From Haloferula luteola (GTDB lineage Bacteria > Verrucomicrobiota > Verrucomicrobiia > Verrucomicrobiales > Akkermansiaceae): a DNA stretch of 64,000 nucleotides. Within the stretch, counting starts at the first letter, position 1. Each line of letters begins with the position of its first letter. The translations under genes were made by a program, and so were the position numbers. The DNA lies in NCBI RefSeq assembly GCF_014201715.1, contig NZ_JACHFD010000009.1, forward strand, positions 1 through 64,000, in the 5' to 3' direction. Shown piece after piece: positions 22,480 to 28,487 of the stretch. The notes under the pieces were generated by a model that was not told the DNA's origin, ran no database searches, and saw only the letters and a list, made by a program, of their open reading frames with translations.

Positions 22480-23850
22480 TTACTCTTTCTCAAGGAGAGT
22501 GGGTTTCCCGAAAACGGTGCGCTGGTCCCCTTGATCGTTCATCCATTTCTCCATTTCAGCATGGAAGGTGGCGAGGCGCTCTTTTTGATCGGGGTCGTCG
22601 GCGAGGTTGTGCTGTTCAAGCGGATCCCTTTCGAGGTCGTAGAGTTCCTCCTTGGGTCGCTCCTGGTAGCGGCGGACCTTCGTGGCAGCGTCTTCGCGGC
22701 GGCTGGCGGCTTTGACCCAGCTGGCCCAGTAGTTCGAGCCGGCTTCTCCCTTTTTGGTGATGTGGGTGGTGAACTTGAACTCGGGGTGGAGGTTGAGAAT
22801 GTATTTCCAGCGATCCGTGCGAATGCAGCGGGTGGGGTAGACATTGAAGTTTCCATCGCCACTGTGGGTGGCGTAGATGCGATCGCGGTGGGTGGCGGTT
22901 TTCCCTTCGAGGACGCCGGTGATGCTTTTTCCATCGATTTTCTCCGGTGGGGTTCCTCCGGCGACGTCCACCAGGGTGGGGAGAACGTCGGTGAGGCAAA
23001 CCATGGCATTGGTGCGAGTGCCGGCCGTGGTGTGTCCTGGCCAAACGGCAATCATCGGGGTGCGGATGCCATCGTCGTAGAGGGTCCATTTGCCAAACGG
23101 CCATTGGGCACCCTGATCGGCAAAATGGAGGAAGAAGAGGTTGTCTCTGAATTTTTTACGAGAGAGGTCGTAGACCTGTCCAAGTTCATCATCCATGCGA
23201 GTGATGGCAGCATAGTAGCGAGCTCGGGCTTGGTGCGTGAGCGGGGTGTCGACATGGTTGGCGGGGACTTCGACTTTTTTCGGGTCGTGGCCTTCTGGGG
23301 TTTTGGGCCACGGGACGTGGGGCCAGTTGGTGCCGACGAAGAGGCAGAGGGGCTTGTCGCTGTTGCGGTTTTCCAGCCATTTGAGGGCTTCAGGGATGGC
23401 GATGTCCTCGTGATAGTTGGTGTGGGCAACGAGATCGAAGCCGTAGTCCTTGGTTTGGTTATAGTGGCCGACTTTGCCGAAGGCGACGACCTCGTAGCCA
23501 AGCTCCTGGAGGTAGGCGGGCATTTTCTTGATGTCCTTGCGTGGGGCGGCGTGATTCGGCTCGGCACCATTGTGGACGGGAGTGAGTCCGGTGAGCATGG
23601 CGGCCCGGCTGGGCGCGCAGGTGGGGGAAATGGCGAAAGCGCGATCAAAGGTCATCCCAGCGGCAGCGATGCGCGCCATGTGGGGAGTGGCGATGTTGGT
23701 GGAGCCGTAGGGTGTGGAATCGGTCGCGGTGTGGTCGTCTGATATGAAGATGACGAGGTTGGGTTTTTTCGAGGTCTCCGCATGGAGGCCGGTGATTCCT
23801 ATGAGGAAGACGGTGAGAAGAAAGGCACGGTGGATGAGCGGTGGAATCAT
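22480..23850 (-). CDS. Secreted sulfatase (iduronate-2-sulfatase/arylsulfatase type)
   Basis: 456 aa from ATG 23850 (MIPPLIHRAFLLTVFLIGITGLHA, a Sec signal peptide); an upstream in-frame start at 23910 adds a Pro/Thr-rich stretch before the signal and is unlikely. Alkaline-phosphatase-superfamily sulfatase: metal ligands in LVIFISDDHTATD, formylglycine site CAPSRAAMLTG (C-x-P-S-R, needing maturation by a formylglycine-generating enzyme), and DDELGQVYDL and HFADQGAQWPFGKWTLYDDGIRTPMI carrying later metal and sulfate ligands. Removes sulfate esters from polysaccharides. Lies downstream of the PEP-CTERM gene in the same direction, separated by a terminator-like hairpin. Confidence 0.9.
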   Translation of the reverse strand: MIPPLIHRAFLLTVFLIGITGLHAETSKKPNLVIFISDDHTATDSTPYGSTNIATPHMARIAAAGMTFDRAFAISPTCAPSRAAMLTGLTPVHNGAEPNHAAPRKDIKKMPAYLQELGYEVVAFGKVGHYNQTKDYGFDLVAHTNYHEDIAIPEALKWLENRNSDKPLCLFVGTNWPHVPWPKTPEGHDPKKVEVPANHVDTPLTHQARARYYAAITRMDDELGQVYDLSRKKFRDNLFFLHFADQGAQWPFGKWTLYDDGIRTPMIAVWPGHTTAGTRTNAMVCLTDVLPTLVDVAGGTPPEKIDGKSITGVLEGKTATHRDRIYATHSGDGNFNVYPTRCIRTDRWKYILNLHPEFKFTTHITKKGEAGSNYWASWVKAASRREDAATKVRRYQERPKEELYDLERDPLEQHNLADDPDQKERLATFHAEMEKWMNDQGDQRTVFGKPTLLEKE

Positions 23851-23896
23851 GTTTTTGGGATTCGTGGGATACGGAGTCGTCGAGGGAGGTCTTTGT

Positions 23897-23937
23897 GGGA
23901 AAAGGGCCACCGGCGGGGGATTCCAGCAGGTGGCCCT
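23897..23937 (-). terminator. Intrinsic terminator between the PEP-CTERM gene and the sulfatase gene
   Basis: Positions 23903-23911 (agggccacc) pair with 23929-23937 (ggtggccct), a perfect 9-bp stem. Read on the minus strand the stem is followed by TTTTCCC. It is placed 10 bp after the PEP-CTERM stop, so at least part of the transcription ends before the downstream sulfatase. Confidence 0.7.
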
Positions 23938-23946
23938 GAAGCGGGA

Positions 23947-24858
23947 TCAACGACGGCGGCGCAAAAGCATGGAGGCACTGAGTCCGGCGAGGCCGAGGGC
24001 GCTGGGTTCAGGCACGGTCTCGATGGCGAAATTATCGAAGGTGACACTGGTGCCGTCCCGGGCATCGAGGCCGATGTAGTTGGCATCGGTCGAGGCCCAG
24101 TTGAAGCTGCCGGTGCCGAGGGAGTTGCCGTCGTAGAAGACTTCGAAGCCGACCTCGGTCCCGGCGTTGAAGTCGGTGAAGGCGGAGAAGACTGCAGTGA
24201 GGGTCCCGGTTTTTGCCGAAACGTTGGCAAGGCCAAGGCGGCCGGTGTCCACGGGGCCATCCGATAGAGCATTTCCCGAGGTTCCCCAGATGACGGTGTT
24301 GTCGCCCCTTAGGAGCATCCAGAAGGAGGCGATGGAGACATCGGTCACAGCATTCTGGGCGCCGGGGAAGCCGTCCTGAAACTTCTGAGTGGCATTCCAA
24401 GAGTCGCCAGCATTGAGGGCATCGGAAAGGGCCATGCCGATGGCAAAGCCGCCACCGAAATCGTTGGAGGTGCCGCCATAGCTGCCGATATCGATGGTGA
24501 CGGAGAAGCCACCGCGGAGGGAGGTGTCGGTGAAATTGTGGTTGATGAAGGCATTCGACGTGCCGCTTCCGACAGCGAGCTGGAGGGTATTGGAGAGGAT
24601 GCGAGCGCCTCCTCCGTTGCCCGGGGTGGCGTCCTGAACTCCATAGGTAGGAGCAGCATTGTTGGGGTCGAGCCACGGTTGGGTGTAGACATCGTCGCCG
24701 GCGAAGGCGGAGCCAGTGACGTCGACGATTCCGGTGAGCGAGGCGTCGATGTTGCGGTCATCGGCGCGATCGAAGTTGTCAGAAAACAGCACGGCGGCAG
24801 AGGCGGAAGGAAGGCCGAGGAGAGCCGTGAGTGCGGCAATGGGGAGGGTTCGATTCAT
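23947..24858 (-). CDS. PEP-CTERM-sorted protein sharing a domain with the upstream sulfatase
   Basis: 303 aa. Signal peptide at residues 1-22 (LPIAALTALLGLPSASAA). The C-terminus VPEPSALGLAGLSASMLLRRRR is a canonical PEP-CTERM sorting tail (PEP motif, hydrophobic helix, Arg cluster), predicting processing by an exosortase and association with the envelope or exopolysaccharide. The body, from SDNFDRADDRNIDASLTG to FNWASTDANYIGLDARDG, is a beta-rich domain of about 230 aa. The same domain is recognisable in the C-terminal part of the large sulfatase just upstream (FNRPADNDIDASSDG ... FQWDFDQTNYLGLSARAS). Its ATG overlaps that gene's stop by 4 bp (24855-24858). Confidence 0.85.
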   Translation of the reverse strand: MNRTLPIAALTALLGLPSASAAVLFSDNFDRADDRNIDASLTGIVDVTGSAFAGDDVYTQPWLDPNNAAPTYGVQDATPGNGGGARILSNTLQLAVGSGTSNAFINHNFTDTSLRGGFSVTIDIGSYGGTSNDFGGGFAIGMALSDALNAGDSWNATQKFQDGFPGAQNAVTDVSIASFWMLLRGDNTVIWGTSGNALSDGPVDTGRLGLANVSAKTGTLTAVFSAFTDFNAGTEVGFEVFYDGNSLGTGSFNWASTDANYIGLDARDGTSVTFDNFAIETVPEPSALGLAGLSASMLLRRRR

Positions 24859-27800
24859 GGGTTGTAGGTATTGGGTTGGATGGAGATCAGAGCGAAGAGC
24901 TGGGACTGGCCAGAAACCGATTCGGCGGGGAGTTCGAGCTCGACGGTTTCATAACCGGGAGAGTCCGGAACGGGCTGGGGGCTGGAGACAAGAGTGGCGT
25001 CGACGGGGGTCCAGTCGACGAGATCGGTGGAAAGGAGGACCTGATAGTGAACCCCGGCGGCCTGACTGTCGTGGAGCCGGCGGCTTTCGATGCGGAAGCG
25101 CGAGGTCCCGGGATCGATAGAGACAAGTCCCAACGGGGTGATTTGCGGGTCGGGTTGAGCTGGGTCACTGCCGATGGCCCATTCGAGAAAATTGGGGCGT
25201 CCGTCGTGATCGGGATCGGCATCGGGAGCACTGTCGGTTTCCTGCCAGCCGGCGCTCACCGCATGTTGCACCGAGAGAGCTTCGGCGAGAGGGAGGCGCC
25301 GCACGGCGAGGTTATCGATGGCGGCGTAGCCAGAGGCCCTCGCACTGAGACCCAGGTAGTTGGTTTGGTCGAAGTCCCACTGGAAGGAGCGAGAGACGGA
25401 ATCGGAGTCATCCGGATTGAGGTCCACGAGGCGACCATTGAAGAAGACGGCGACGTCGACTGTGTCGGCAGTGGTGAATCCGCTGAGCGCGAAGCGAGCG
25501 GTGAGGGTCCCGGTGGAAGCGCCGAGGGCGACGGTCGAGAGAAGTTGTCCTTTCGACCAAGCCTTGAGGTTGCCGTTGAGATCGAGTTCGAGGAAGAAGT
25601 CGGCTTTTCCGATGGGATTGGTGGTGCGGCCACGGAAGCTATCGGCGGCGGAGATGTCGGAGCCGGAAAGGGCTTCTGCTTCACTAAGGCCGACTCCGAA
25701 GCCGCAGTATCGATCGGCCGGTTCGGTGTTCTCTGAGTTGAGAGCGGTGATGGTCATTTCCACGCTAAACCCGCCGGCCTCGATGATATCGGCGCCGACG
25801 AAATTGTGGAGGATGCCAGTTTCCGCCATGCCGATGCCGGAGGCAATGAGAAGTCGGTGGTCGAGGACCTGAATGGAATCGCTCGTGCCGCTACCTTCGA
25901 AGCCTTCGGCGTAGGTGGCGTCGTTGCCGAGCGGCGGAACGCGATGGCCGGCCATGCCATCTGAGGAGGCATCGATATCGTTGTCGGCAGGGCGATTGAA
26001 GGTGTCGACGAAGAGGTCTCCCGTCAGCGGGGATGGGGGACGCTGGGCGAGGTCGAGGAGCCGTTGGCTGGGTACGCCGACCCGGGTGGCCCAGGCATTC
26101 CAAGCCTCGACCATCGAGCGGACTCGCTGGGGCGAGACCGCGGCGAGGTTGTTGAGTTCGGTGGGGTCGTCGGGGAGGTGATAGAGTTCGAGGAGGTTGG
26201 CTGGAGAAGATCCGTCGGTGGACGAAAAGGTTTTGGTGACGAGTTTCCATTCGCCATCGACCCATGCGCGGGTGGATTCGTGTTCGTAGCCCACTTGGCG
26301 GGGGAATTCCGATTCGTGGCGGAAGACCGGCAGGAGGCTGCTTCCTTCCGGTTGGACGAGGGGGTGACCGCCATAGGTTTCGGGGAACGTGAGGTTGGTG
26401 GCGTCGAGGAGGGTCGCCATGACGTCGATGACGTGACCGTATTGATCCGTCCAGCGGCCGGGGTCGGTGATCCCTTGGGGCCAATGGGCGATGAGAGGGG
26501 TGCGGATTCCTCCTTCGTGGGAGTAGCGTTTGTAGTAGCGGAAAGGTGTGTTGCAGACATTTGCCCAGCCGCCGCCGAGCCAGAGGTGATCTTCGACTCC
26601 CGCTTGTCCCATCTGAGCGAGGTCGTTTCCGGTAAGTGGGGGATAATTGTTGATACCAAAGGCTTTGCCAAAGACACCCCCTTCGGCGTTGCCGCCGTTG
26701 TCGGAGATGATCATGACCAGAGTATTGTCGAGCTGACCGGCCGTGCGCAGGTGTTCGATGACGCGCCCGAGGTTTTCGTCGACCTTTTCAATCATGGCGG
26801 CATAGAGGGCCATGCGGCGGACGAGATCGGCCTGACGATCGGAATCGAGGGAAGTCCAGGCAGGAACGGGTTGGTAGGTGGGGTTGTCGTTGTAAGGAGT
26901 GTCGCTGAAAGGAGCGTTGAGATAGCTTGAGTCGATCACTCCTTGATCGAGCATGCGCTGGTAGCGCTGGGCGCGGACGGTGTCCCAACCGGCACCATAG
27001 GTCTCCATGTAGGTGTCTGCCAGAGCGGCGGGAGCCTGGAGATCGAAGTGAGGAGGATTGAAGGGGAGGTAGAGGAAGAAGTTGGCTCCGTCTTGTTGGG
27101 AGAAATGGTGATCGAGGAAGTCGATGGCGTGATCCCCGATGGCGTCGCTTTGGTAGAAAGTGCCGTCCGGATAGTCGTGCTGGGTGATTTCCTCTTCGGC
27201 GGAGATGAGGTGGTGGGCGGCTTCATCCCAGTAATCGACTCCGGCCCCGCTGGCGAAGTTACCGAAGCCGAAGACATGCTGGAATCCGCGATCGGTGGTT
27301 CGTTCGCCAGGATCGCTGCCATTGTGCCATTTTCCCCCCATGTAGGTGCGGTAGCCGTTGGCGAAGAAGAGTTCCGCCAGGGTGAGGTTGTTGTCGGTGC
27401 GAAGATCCGGCAGCGAGGCACCGGGATTTTGGACGACTTGATGGGTGTAAGCCCCGGTCAGCAGGGCGGCTCGTGTCGTGCTGCAACGGGCGGTGTTGTG
27501 GAAATTTCGGAAGCGCAGACCATGGGCAGCGAGATCGTCCATGTGGGGGGTGCGGGCTTCGCCACCGTAGCATCCGAGGTCACTCCACCCGGTGTCATCC
27601 ATGAGAAGGAGGACGACATTGGGGCGAGGGGATGGTGGCGGCGGATCTCCTTCCGGGTCGGTGTATGCCGTGGTGAGGTTGTATTTTTCGGAGAGGTAGT
27701 AGCCGACTTTTTGGGTTTCGTTTTCGTCGAGATCTCGGTCGTAGAAGAGGATTTCGGCGATGTGGGCGTCGGCAAATTCGCCCAGTATGCCACTACCTCC

Positions 27801-28487
27801 GATGAGCCCGGCGCCGATGTGGTAGCCTTCGTCGGCCAGATTGAGAGAGTTGGCGGGGTTGGTGACCGCGGAGGCGACTTTGGGGCGATGGTCGGTGCGC
27901 AGGAGGGCTTCATTGTAGGTTTGCCCGGGGCTCATGCGGAAGAGGCCGATGCGCGGTCGGCCGGGTTCAAATCCCGGGCCGAAGAGGCGGTTGCCATCAT
28001 TGAAGCGGAGACCGGCCTGGGAGATGCTGAGATCACATTTGACGGAGGCCCCCGCGGCTCCATCGGCGGTATTGTTTTTGATGTCGCCGAACGAAAAGCC
28101 GGTGGAAATGGCGGTCTTCTGGTTGGTGGCAACGATGAAGACGGTGAATCCTTGGGCGCCTTCGGCTGAAGAGAGTCCGAGGGAACTGGCCGAGCCGAGG
28201 GCGGAGGACCCGTCAAAAACCACCGAAGGGTGGCCGGAGAACAGCGGATCGGAGGTGCGGAAGGTGGGAGAACCTGTGCCGAGCCCAAGATGGGCGTCCT
28301 GGGCAGGATCTCCGGCGACGTGGCCCACTGCCAAATCGGGCCAGAGGGTGACGGTCGCGCCATCCGCGAGGTCTGGGATTTCGCCGGCGTCAAGGTGGAC
28401 GCGCAAGCCGTCGGTGACGGGCGGAGAGGCGGCATCGAGTGGCAGGGCGAGCGCGGCCAGCCAGCAAACAAGGAATCGGTCGGTCAT
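24855..28487 (-). CDS. Very large multidomain secreted sulfatase (1210 aa)
   Basis: Signal peptide at residues 1-20 (FLVCWLAALALPLDAA). Residues about 25-270 are a LamG/concanavalin-like module (GLRVHLDAGEIPDLADG ... AHIAEILFYDRDLDENETQKVGYYLSEKY). Residues about 288-800 are a sulfatase: NVVLLLMDDTGWSDLGCYGG, active-site region RCSTTRAALLTGAY (Cys near 333), IISDNGGNAEGGVFGK and HEGGIRTPLIAHWP. The formylglycine site reads C-S-T-T-R, lacking the usual Pro at position 3. Residues about 820-1070 are a beta domain shared with the downstream PEP-CTERM protein; then DADPDHDGRPNFLEWAIGSDP and a final beta domain. Acts on sulfated polysaccharides outside the cell (inferred). Confidence 0.88.
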   Translation of the reverse strand: MTDRFLVCWLAALALPLDAASPPVTDGLRVHLDAGEIPDLADGATVTLWPDLAVGHVAGDPAQDAHLGLGTGSPTFRTSDPLFSGHPSVVFDGSSALGSASSLGLSSAEGAQGFTVFIVATNQKTAISTGFSFGDIKNNTADGAAGASVKCDLSISQAGLRFNDGNRLFGPGFEPGRPRIGLFRMSPGQTYNEALLRTDHRPKVASAVTNPANSLNLADEGYHIGAGLIGGSGILGEFADAHIAEILFYDRDLDENETQKVGYYLSEKYNLTTAYTDPEGDPPPPSPRPNVVLLLMDDTGWSDLGCYGGEARTPHMDDLAAHGLRFRNFHNTARCSTTRAALLTGAYTHQVVQNPGASLPDLRTDNNLTLAELFFANGYRTYMGGKWHNGSDPGERTTDRGFQHVFGFGNFASGAGVDYWDEAAHHLISAEEEITQHDYPDGTFYQSDAIGDHAIDFLDHHFSQQDGANFFLYLPFNPPHFDLQAPAALADTYMETYGAGWDTVRAQRYQRMLDQGVIDSSYLNAPFSDTPYNDNPTYQPVPAWTSLDSDRQADLVRRMALYAAMIEKVDENLGRVIEHLRTAGQLDNTLVMIISDNGGNAEGGVFGKAFGINNYPPLTGNDLAQMGQAGVEDHLWLGGGWANVCNTPFRYYKRYSHEGGIRTPLIAHWPQGITDPGRWTDQYGHVIDVMATLLDATNLTFPETYGGHPLVQPEGSSLLPVFRHESEFPRQVGYEHESTRAWVDGEWKLVTKTFSSTDGSSPANLLELYHLPDDPTELNNLAAVSPQRVRSMVEAWNAWATRVGVPSQRLLDLAQRPPSPLTGDLFVDTFNRPADNDIDASSDGMAGHRVPPLGNDATYAEGFEGSGTSDSIQVLDHRLLIASGIGMAETGILHNFVGADIIEAGGFSVEMTITALNSENTEPADRYCGFGVGLSEAEALSGSDISAADSFRGRTTNPIGKADFFLELDLNGNLKAWSKGQLLSTVALGASTGTLTARFALSGFTTADTVDVAVFFNGRLVDLNPDDSDSVSRSFQWDFDQTNYLGLSARASGYAAIDNLAVRRLPLAEALSVQHAVSAGWQETDSAPDADPDHDGRPNFLEWAIGSDPAQPDPQITPLGLVSIDPGTSRFRIESRRLHDSQAAGVHYQVLLSTDLVDWTPVDATLVSSPQPVPDSPGYETVELELPAESVSGQSQLFALISIQPNTYNP

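Follow-up and report, generated by a model that had tools for sequence, protein, structure and literature searches.

In the polysaccharide utilisation loci of Bacteroidota, surface glycan-binding lipoproteins are encoded with SusC/D beside the enzymes, and cohesin–dockerin attachment needs two different, complementary domains. As far as the accessible portions of the sources go, PEP-CTERM proteins are numerous, fast-evolving, diverse and mostly without recognised homology (Haft 2006; PMC1569441), the members of some protein families bear different sorting tails, i.e. GlyGly-CTERM, LPXTG or PEP-CTERM (PMC3237569), and 23 PEP-CTERM proteins have been predicted in Akkermansia muciniphila, 9 of them detected by mass spectrometry (PMC4960237). 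Here we describe two overlapping genes in a 64,000-nucleotide stretch of the Haloferula luteola genome (contig NZ_JACHFD010000009.1, positions 1 to 64,000; hereafter the window), which encode a sulfatase-family protein, designated P0001, and a PEP-CTERM protein, designated P0002, carrying related copies of one domain (domain A). We lean, with some reserve, towards P0002 being a surface glycan-binding partner, which displays a module of predicted lectin fold related to P0001's own, and not a protein–protein anchor for the enzyme.

Both reading frames are on the minus strand, P0001 (1210 amino acids, aa) followed by P0002 (303 aa), and the stop codon of the first shares 4 nucleotides with the start codon of the second, as ATGA (Table 1). 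Residues 818–1073 of P0001 align in BLASTP with residues 17–290 of P0002 (29% identity, 66 bits, E 5e-16), which rules out chance similarity and bears out the original prediction that the C-terminal region of the sulfatase and the body of its neighbour are related. A profile built from five copies recovers both window copies with E values of 6e-100 and 3.5e-88; as both are rows of that profile, this confirms their placement and is not independent evidence of homology. Domain A is not ubiquitous: at least five copies were found in the 4.9-Mb genome, in four proteins, namely P0001, P0002 and two further sulfatases (one of 1326 aa on contig C13, with two copies, and one of approximately 1600 aa on C3, with a single copy), and matches at E<=1e-5 occurred in at least 16 of 239 genomes of the order, the H. 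luteola genome counted. These numbers of copies and genomes are lower bounds, the search having scored the best candidates of each genome; five copies in four proteins are, all the same, far from the hundreds of unrelated proteins that the original prediction had named as a sign against it. The two window copies are no close pair: that of P0002 shows 45% identity to the N-terminal domain of a further H. luteola sulfatase, against 31% to that of P0001.

The domain-A regions of P0001 and P0002 had no Pfam or NCBIfam match at E<=1, and no credible sequence relative was found among solved structures (best E 0.093). A model of the P0002 domain, computed from a 14-row alignment (pLDDT 81, pTM 0.85), gave best Foldseek matches to solved structures that include carbohydrate-recognition domains of L-type lectins, legume lectins, GH16 glucanases and alginate lyases, with E values from 4e-6. 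In VIA-align the model reached Z scores of about 15 over about 180 residues with the L-type lectins Emp46p, Emp47p, ERGIC-53 and VIP36, at identities of about 7–11%, the top rows being a phage central fibre (Z 15.7). Domain A is thus predicted to have a concanavalin-A-like/L-type-lectin fold, a resemblance at the level of the fold, and would probably bind a sugar, perhaps a sulfated polysaccharide. The model of P0001 residues 818–1210 was poor (pLDDT 61, pTM 0.56) and we therefore make no claim for the fold of the tail, although the model as a whole still matches lectins.

The domain-A tree comprised 42 copies, with copies below 190 aa and loci L155–L159 left out. All 11 sulfatase C-terminal copies, referred to as C-type, lie to one side of a branch (88/88); a group of 19 (100/100), referred to as N-type, has 10 members that stem from PEP-CTERM frames, 6 from the N-termini of sulfatases and 3 of other kinds. 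The P0001 copy is C-type and the P0002 copy is N-type, closest to PEP-CTERM frames of a Planctomycetota metagenome-assembled genome (MAG). As the two window copies belong to two old subfamilies, P0002 was not derived by copying the domain of P0001, and its origin as such a duplicate was rejected. Of the 11 domain-A sulfatases, 7 carry a fused N-terminal copy, that of L138 being a long branch outside the N-type group; P0001 carries a different N-terminal module, and the N-type copy is supplied in trans by P0002.

Small PEP-CTERM genes with an N-type copy were found at five loci in two phyla: in the window, in a second species of the genus (G100), in a Planctomycetales MAG (L134), in Botrimarina (L136) and in Aeoliella (L137). 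At the four loci outside the window, a sulfatase 37–51% identical to the sulfatase domain of P0001 lies in the same gene run. In G100 the PEP-CTERM gene is directly upstream of a sulfatase of approximately 1290 aa with two copies of domain A, and its copy and the N-terminal copy of the sulfatase are sisters in the tree (100/99); in L134 and L137 one more gene with a PEP-CTERM-like end stands between the PEP-CTERM gene and the sulfatase. A functional link of domain A to the P0001 sulfatase subfamily is well supported across two phyla. A sixth small PEP-CTERM protein (L151, genome G216) belongs to a divergent group, with no sulfatase of this subfamily in its 14-kb stretch, and the N-type copies of L135 (on a 4.8-kb contig) and L144 sit in proteins without a sulfatase domain, again with no sulfatase of this subfamily in the stretches examined around them.

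Some details of these loci deserve mention in their own right. The Botrimarina sulfatase (L136, 3005-6766) is split in two around a gene that, by eye, resembles a transposase. In three single Planctomycetota frames (L134 6338-9529, L137 5369-8446 and L136 8875-10956), inspection by eye shows a PEP-CTERM-like segment in the interior and, after it, a signal-peptide-like stretch and a further domain A; these frames have the appearance of PEP-CTERM proteins fused together, which an exosortase might cleave as a polyprotein. In a MAG of Verrucomicrobia subdivision 3 (L139, 3110-11097) three sulfatase-like frames follow one another, with domain A in the first only.

The original prediction had offered two routes by which P0002 might serve the sulfatase, self-association of the shared domain and binding of a common glycan. 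The first would make P0002 an anchor, with domain A of P0001 binding domain A of P0002 and the sulfatase being held at the surface. The relatedness of the domains, the overlap of the genes, the absence of a PEP-CTERM segment from P0001 and the sister relationship of the two G100 copies all fit such an anchor, and lectin-fold domains can dimerise. However, no domain A was found in the sulfatases of L134, L136 and L137, which have domain-A PEP-CTERM companions and whose own ends are PEP-CTERM-like by eye (only the L136 end was scored by Pfam, at 18.5 bits, under the cut-off), so that these companions can hardly catch the enzyme by a like domain. The window copies, moreover, come from different subfamilies, P0001 possesses its own tail module (see below), and a full-length ortholog of P0001 in genome G146 (63% identity over 1189 aa) is without a companion in the 14-kb stretch examined. 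A domain-A PEP-CTERM neighbour was present for 2 of the 11 domain-A sulfatases in the stretches examined, and the C3 sulfatase has a neighbour with which it shares a different module; with the ortholog and the nine domain-A sulfatases lacking such a neighbour, the pair is not obligatory. We consider the anchor improbable, and of the two routes it is that of the shared glycan which gains from the predicted lectin fold, itself no proof of sugar binding.

Pairs of a PEP-CTERM protein and a module-matched neighbour recur in the genus, with modules that vary from locus to locus and partners that are often polysaccharide-active enzymes. PEP-CTERM proteins were compared with frames of at least 100 aa within 5 kb, and a homologous neighbour not itself of the PEP-CTERM kind (non-PEP) was counted as a match. 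In the H. luteola genome such a neighbour, in every case encoded on the same strand, was present for 8 of 56 PEP-CTERM proteins, whereas mismatched combinations gave 2 of 3080 (Fisher p 2.7e-13); the corresponding figures for G100 were 7 of 56 and 5 of 3080 (p 2.9e-10), one of the five mismatched pairs being the sulfatase, met again from an overlapping search window. The first set was made up of 58 matches and P0002 less three judged false (C20:61078, C1:111179 and C8:130115), the second of 59 matches less three short frames. In 11 other species of the genus, 8 of 24 PEP-CTERM proteins (in 7 of the 11 species) had a homologous non-PEP neighbour; these 24 were hand-picked from the listed high scorers before their neighbours were seen, so that 8 of 24 does not estimate the genome rate without bias, and one of the matches fell outside its own locus. 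Pooled over the 13 species, 23 of 136 PEP-CTERM proteins have a module in common with a non-PEP neighbour.

It should be noted that frames were assigned to the two classes by matching a text pattern to their ends, with errors in both directions: hits at L249 flagged as lacking PEP-CTERM have RRRR or RRRRC as their last residues and were entered as PEP-CTERM, and a 516-aa protein of G100 (L244) was flagged as PEP-CTERM though its end shows none. One G100 protein (G100_1332232) was counted through partners on both sides, one 1.7 kb away and one just downstream. Gaps within the H. luteola pairs range from -4 to 112 nucleotides and are approximate, since start codons were set by a simple rule and one G100 start is plainly too late. 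At L249 (5050-10687, genome G157), six related frames with PEP-CTERM-like ends stand in tandem.

The partners in H. luteola are three sulfatases, a TSP3 protein with two LamG domains, a PL11-type lyase, a GH115 enzyme, a protein of approximately 1180 aa, and a GH27-like enzyme and an Ig-domain protein that flank one PEP-CTERM gene; those in the further sample include a sulfatase, GDSL and SASA esterases, a GH78 rhamnosidase, and PhoD and BNR_4 proteins. The giant sulfatase on C3 and the adjacent PEP-CTERM protein share module B, present twice in the enzyme (42% and 35% identity), and the giant sulfatase on C16 shares module C with its PEP-CTERM neighbour (46%). Neither module B nor module C had a match outside the H. 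luteola genome among the 239 genomes of the order (E<=1e-5), and modules D, E and F (together those of the PL11, GH115 and GH27-like loci) occur in this genome each at its own locus only, bar one weak hit. The triple of GH27-like, PEP-CTERM and Ig-domain genes (L177 5600-11278; C4:130600-136278) is found in the same order in genome G117 (L258 6336-12024), the partners being 66% and 60% identical. In the tree of module D the three G117 copies group apart from the three H. luteola copies (97/96), the H. luteola PEP-CTERM copy forming a long branch; the copies thus cluster by species and not by gene, which points to concerted evolution or renewed duplication.

At the C-terminus of many non-PEP partners, among them P0001, stands a module of approximately 110 aa. 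It combines an acidic D-x-D-x-D linker of TSP3-like character with a second part in which an F near the stop is conserved, in many cases as F-x-R. A 12-row profile of this tail matched at least 57 places in the H. luteola genome at E<=1e-5, that of P0001 among them, with the best 150 of 247 candidates scored; 8 of the 57 are rows of the profile and some cover the linker only. The tail was detected in 7 of 9 partners in H. luteola, 9 of 9 in G100 and, in the sample from other species, 8 of 13, several of the tail-bearing partners of the first two being themselves profile rows. Among 19 hand-picked tail matches (the PEP-CTERM place C7:52174 left out), 14 end within 15 residues of the stop, that on C13 runs two codons past it, three shorter ones end 22–38 residues before it and one 218. 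In the partners scanned, the only best-scoring Pfam or NCBIfam stretch at the protein end was TSP3_bac, which covers the linker. Judging by its position and recurrence, the tail could be a second module for C-terminal sorting or anchoring. The original prediction that the sulfatase lacks a sorting tail therefore holds for PEP-CTERM and is otherwise uncertain, P0001 ending in this recurrent module.

P0002 itself shows, by eye, a signal-peptide-like start (MNRTLPIAALTALLGLPSASA) and an end (VPEPSALGLAGLSASMLLRRRR) with PEP, a hydrophobic stretch and RRRR. Its PEP-CTERM scores are 18.9 bits in Pfam (cut-off 20.7) and 15.2 in TIGR02595 (cut-off 16), and it was not among the matches of the genome-wide PEP-CTERM scan. 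Its start has, by eye, no cysteine and hence no lipobox. The exosortase family PF09721 was found above cut-off at three places in the genome (best E 4.4e-49), and we take it that P0002 would be processed by an exosortase and located at the surface or in the exopolysaccharide.

In the reading we lean towards, that of a glycan-binding surface partner, the two-gene unit would place related domains of lectin fold, probably sugar-binding, at two sites, one on the secreted sulfatase P0001 and the other, through exosortase sorting of P0002, on the cell surface or exopolysaccharide. During desulfation by P0001, P0002 would hold polysaccharide of the same (sulfated) kind at the cell. The pair is one case of the wider pattern in this genus, in which a PEP-CTERM partner would display a module akin to the one by which the neighbouring enzyme grips its substrate. 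The predicted fold, the kinds of enzyme among the partners, the modules particular to each locus and the link to one sulfatase subfamily in two phyla favour this reading. A bolder scheme, which we entertain only tentatively, is one of two tails: in these Verrucomicrobiota the same recognition module would be joined to PEP-CTERM on a small surface protein and to the approximately 110-aa tail on the neighbouring enzyme, and the module would act as an address uniting enzyme, substrate and cell. Gene conversion at each locus would keep the module copies similar, in keeping with the clustering of module D by species. Were this true, a class of orphan PEP-CTERM proteins would gain a role. A related module in trans, in adjacent genes of the same strand, would also suit a sensor or decoy, i.e. 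a PEP-CTERM partner that senses substrate or product, or competes with the enzyme's module for the glycan and tunes release from it; no specific pointer to this was seen, no search having been aimed at signalling genes, and we regard it as very improbable.

Several observations weigh against P0002 and its like acting as glycan-binding partners. Lectin folds also serve protein contacts, and the C-type and N-type copies, far apart in the tree, may bind different things. No domain-A PEP-CTERM neighbour was found for 9 of the 11 domain-A sulfatases in the stretches examined, and the 14-kb stretch around the G146 ortholog of P0001 contains no PEP-CTERM gene by the text pattern. Nor was there a homologous non-PEP neighbour within 5 kb for 48 of 56 PEP-CTERM proteins in H. 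luteola and 49 of 56 in G100, and for some partners Pfam gave either matches outside the polysaccharide enzymes (LamG/TSP3, PATR and PhoD) or no match. Local duplication alone would also yield homologous neighbours: among genes near one another, homologous pairs made up 3 of 17 PEP–PEP pairs in H. luteola and 3 of 13 in G100, 2 of 3 and 1 of 3 pairs of two tail-bearing proteins, and 4 of 123 and 2 of 94 pairs of a tail-bearing protein with another gene. From the PEP–PEP, tail–tail and PEP–tail rates, duplication contributes to the pattern and falls mainly on the PEP-CTERM and tail-bearing classes.

A rival reading is a neutral history, in which parts of secreted genes were duplicated in tandem and acquired a PEP-CTERM end without becoming functionally coupled, the pairs being young and lost again. 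Such a history would suit the apparent restriction of modules B and C to one genome and of modules D, E and F to their own loci, the ortholog of P0001 without a partner, and the rank of PEP-CTERM proteins among the most rapidly evolving sets, as given in the accessible portion of PMC1569441. In the background control, however, which used crude longest-frame genes in stretches mostly chosen around PEP-CTERM genes, a PEP-CTERM protein and a nearby tail-bearing one were homologous in 5 of 19 cases in H. luteola and 8 of 23 in G100, far above the rate for near pairs of other genes (9 of 1382 and 21 of 1240), the rate for PEP-CTERM proteins with other genes being 3 of 375 and 2 of 348. Retention of the GH27-like triple in G117, the proximity of domain-A PEP-CTERM genes to the same sulfatase subfamily in two phyla and the fact that P0002 is not a duplicate of the P0001 domain also speak against it, and we judge a neutral history on the whole rather unlikely.

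The remaining features of the locus are listed in Table 1. A hairpin was spotted by eye right behind P0002 and then folded, and P0001 and P0002 accordingly look like one unit; a consensus terminator scan listed no terminator, this hairpin included, and a promoter scan gave 2 promoter-like sites versus 1.2 in shuffled sequences. P0001 matches PF00884 with 186.1 bits over model positions 1–300 of 301. Active sulfatases have the formylglycine motif C-x-P/A-x-R, from which the CSTTR at the active site of P0001 departs; we file P0001 as a sulfatase-family protein with putative sulfatase activity. Among its relatives, the C13 paralog also has CSTTR, the L134 and L137 sulfatases have CSNTR, and that of G100 has CSPTR.

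Table 1. Features of the P0001–P0002 locus, in coordinates of the window
Feature	Coordinates	Strand	Evidence or remark
Secreted sulfatase-family protein P0001, 1210 aa	24855..28487	-	PF00884, E 1.3e-54; signal-peptide-like start
N-terminal module of P0001, aa 21-285	27633..28427	-	No Pfam match at E<=1; 56% in ortholog L140
Sulfatase catalytic domain of P0001	26394..27623	-	PF00884
Active-site motif CSTTR of P0001, aa 335-339	27471..27485	-	Differs from canonical CxPxR
Domain A, C-type copy (P0001 aa 823-1062)	25302..26021	-	BLASTP, profile, tree
C-terminal tail module of P0001, acidic D-x-D-x-D linker and second part	24879..25220	-	Profile
ATGA overlap of P0001 stop and P0002 start	24855..24858	-	Sequence
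PEP-CTERM protein P0002, 303 aa	23947..24858	-	Reading frame
Domain A, N-type copy (P0002)	24022..24789	-	Profile, tree; predicted lectin fold
PEP-CTERM segment of P0002, Pfam match aa 281-303	23950..24018	-	Just under Pfam and TIGR02595 cut-offs
Terminator-like hairpin, then TTTT, directly 3' of P0002	23903..23937	-	Folding, -24.6 kcal/mol, z -3.8
Second sulfatase, 476 aa, downstream of P0002, same strand	22480..23910	-	PF00884, E 2.5e-35; signal-peptide-like start at 23850

Module-matched neighbours go unmentioned in the accessible portions of PMC1569441, PMC3237569, PMC4960237 and PMC12078418, and no description of such pairs was found in the literature as judged by titles and abstract openings, most subscription papers lying outside that coverage. 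With 23 of 136 PEP-CTERM proteins sharing a module with a neighbour, a likely target of such a protein can be read from the gene next to it.

The scheme to which the original prediction had likened this locus, cohesin–dockerin, would likewise put a secreted enzyme at the surface. It does so with two complementary, unrelated domains, whereas P0001 and P0002 both carry one domain family and neither has a cohesin or dockerin match in Pfam at E<=1. The predicted fold of domain A is that of the L-type lectins Emp46p/47p, ERGIC-53 and VIP36, from which the domain differs in sequence to the extent given above. The locus shares with PEP-CTERM/exosortase sorting the signal-peptide-like start, PEP motif, hydrophobic stretch and basic end of P0002 and the three exosortase-family hits, and departs from it in the adjacent, module-matched partners, which the accessible portion of PMC1569441 does not mention. 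It also resembles the tail-varying families, one family with several C-terminal tails in the accessible portion of PMC3237569, with the difference that here neighbouring genes of one genome bear one module with two ends. In role, P0002 would come close to the surface glycan-binding proteins of Bacteroidota, as a non-catalytic binder encoded beside enzymes for one glycan, but unlike them it has no lipobox cysteine, appears to follow exosortase-type sorting and carries a module homologous to the enzyme's own.

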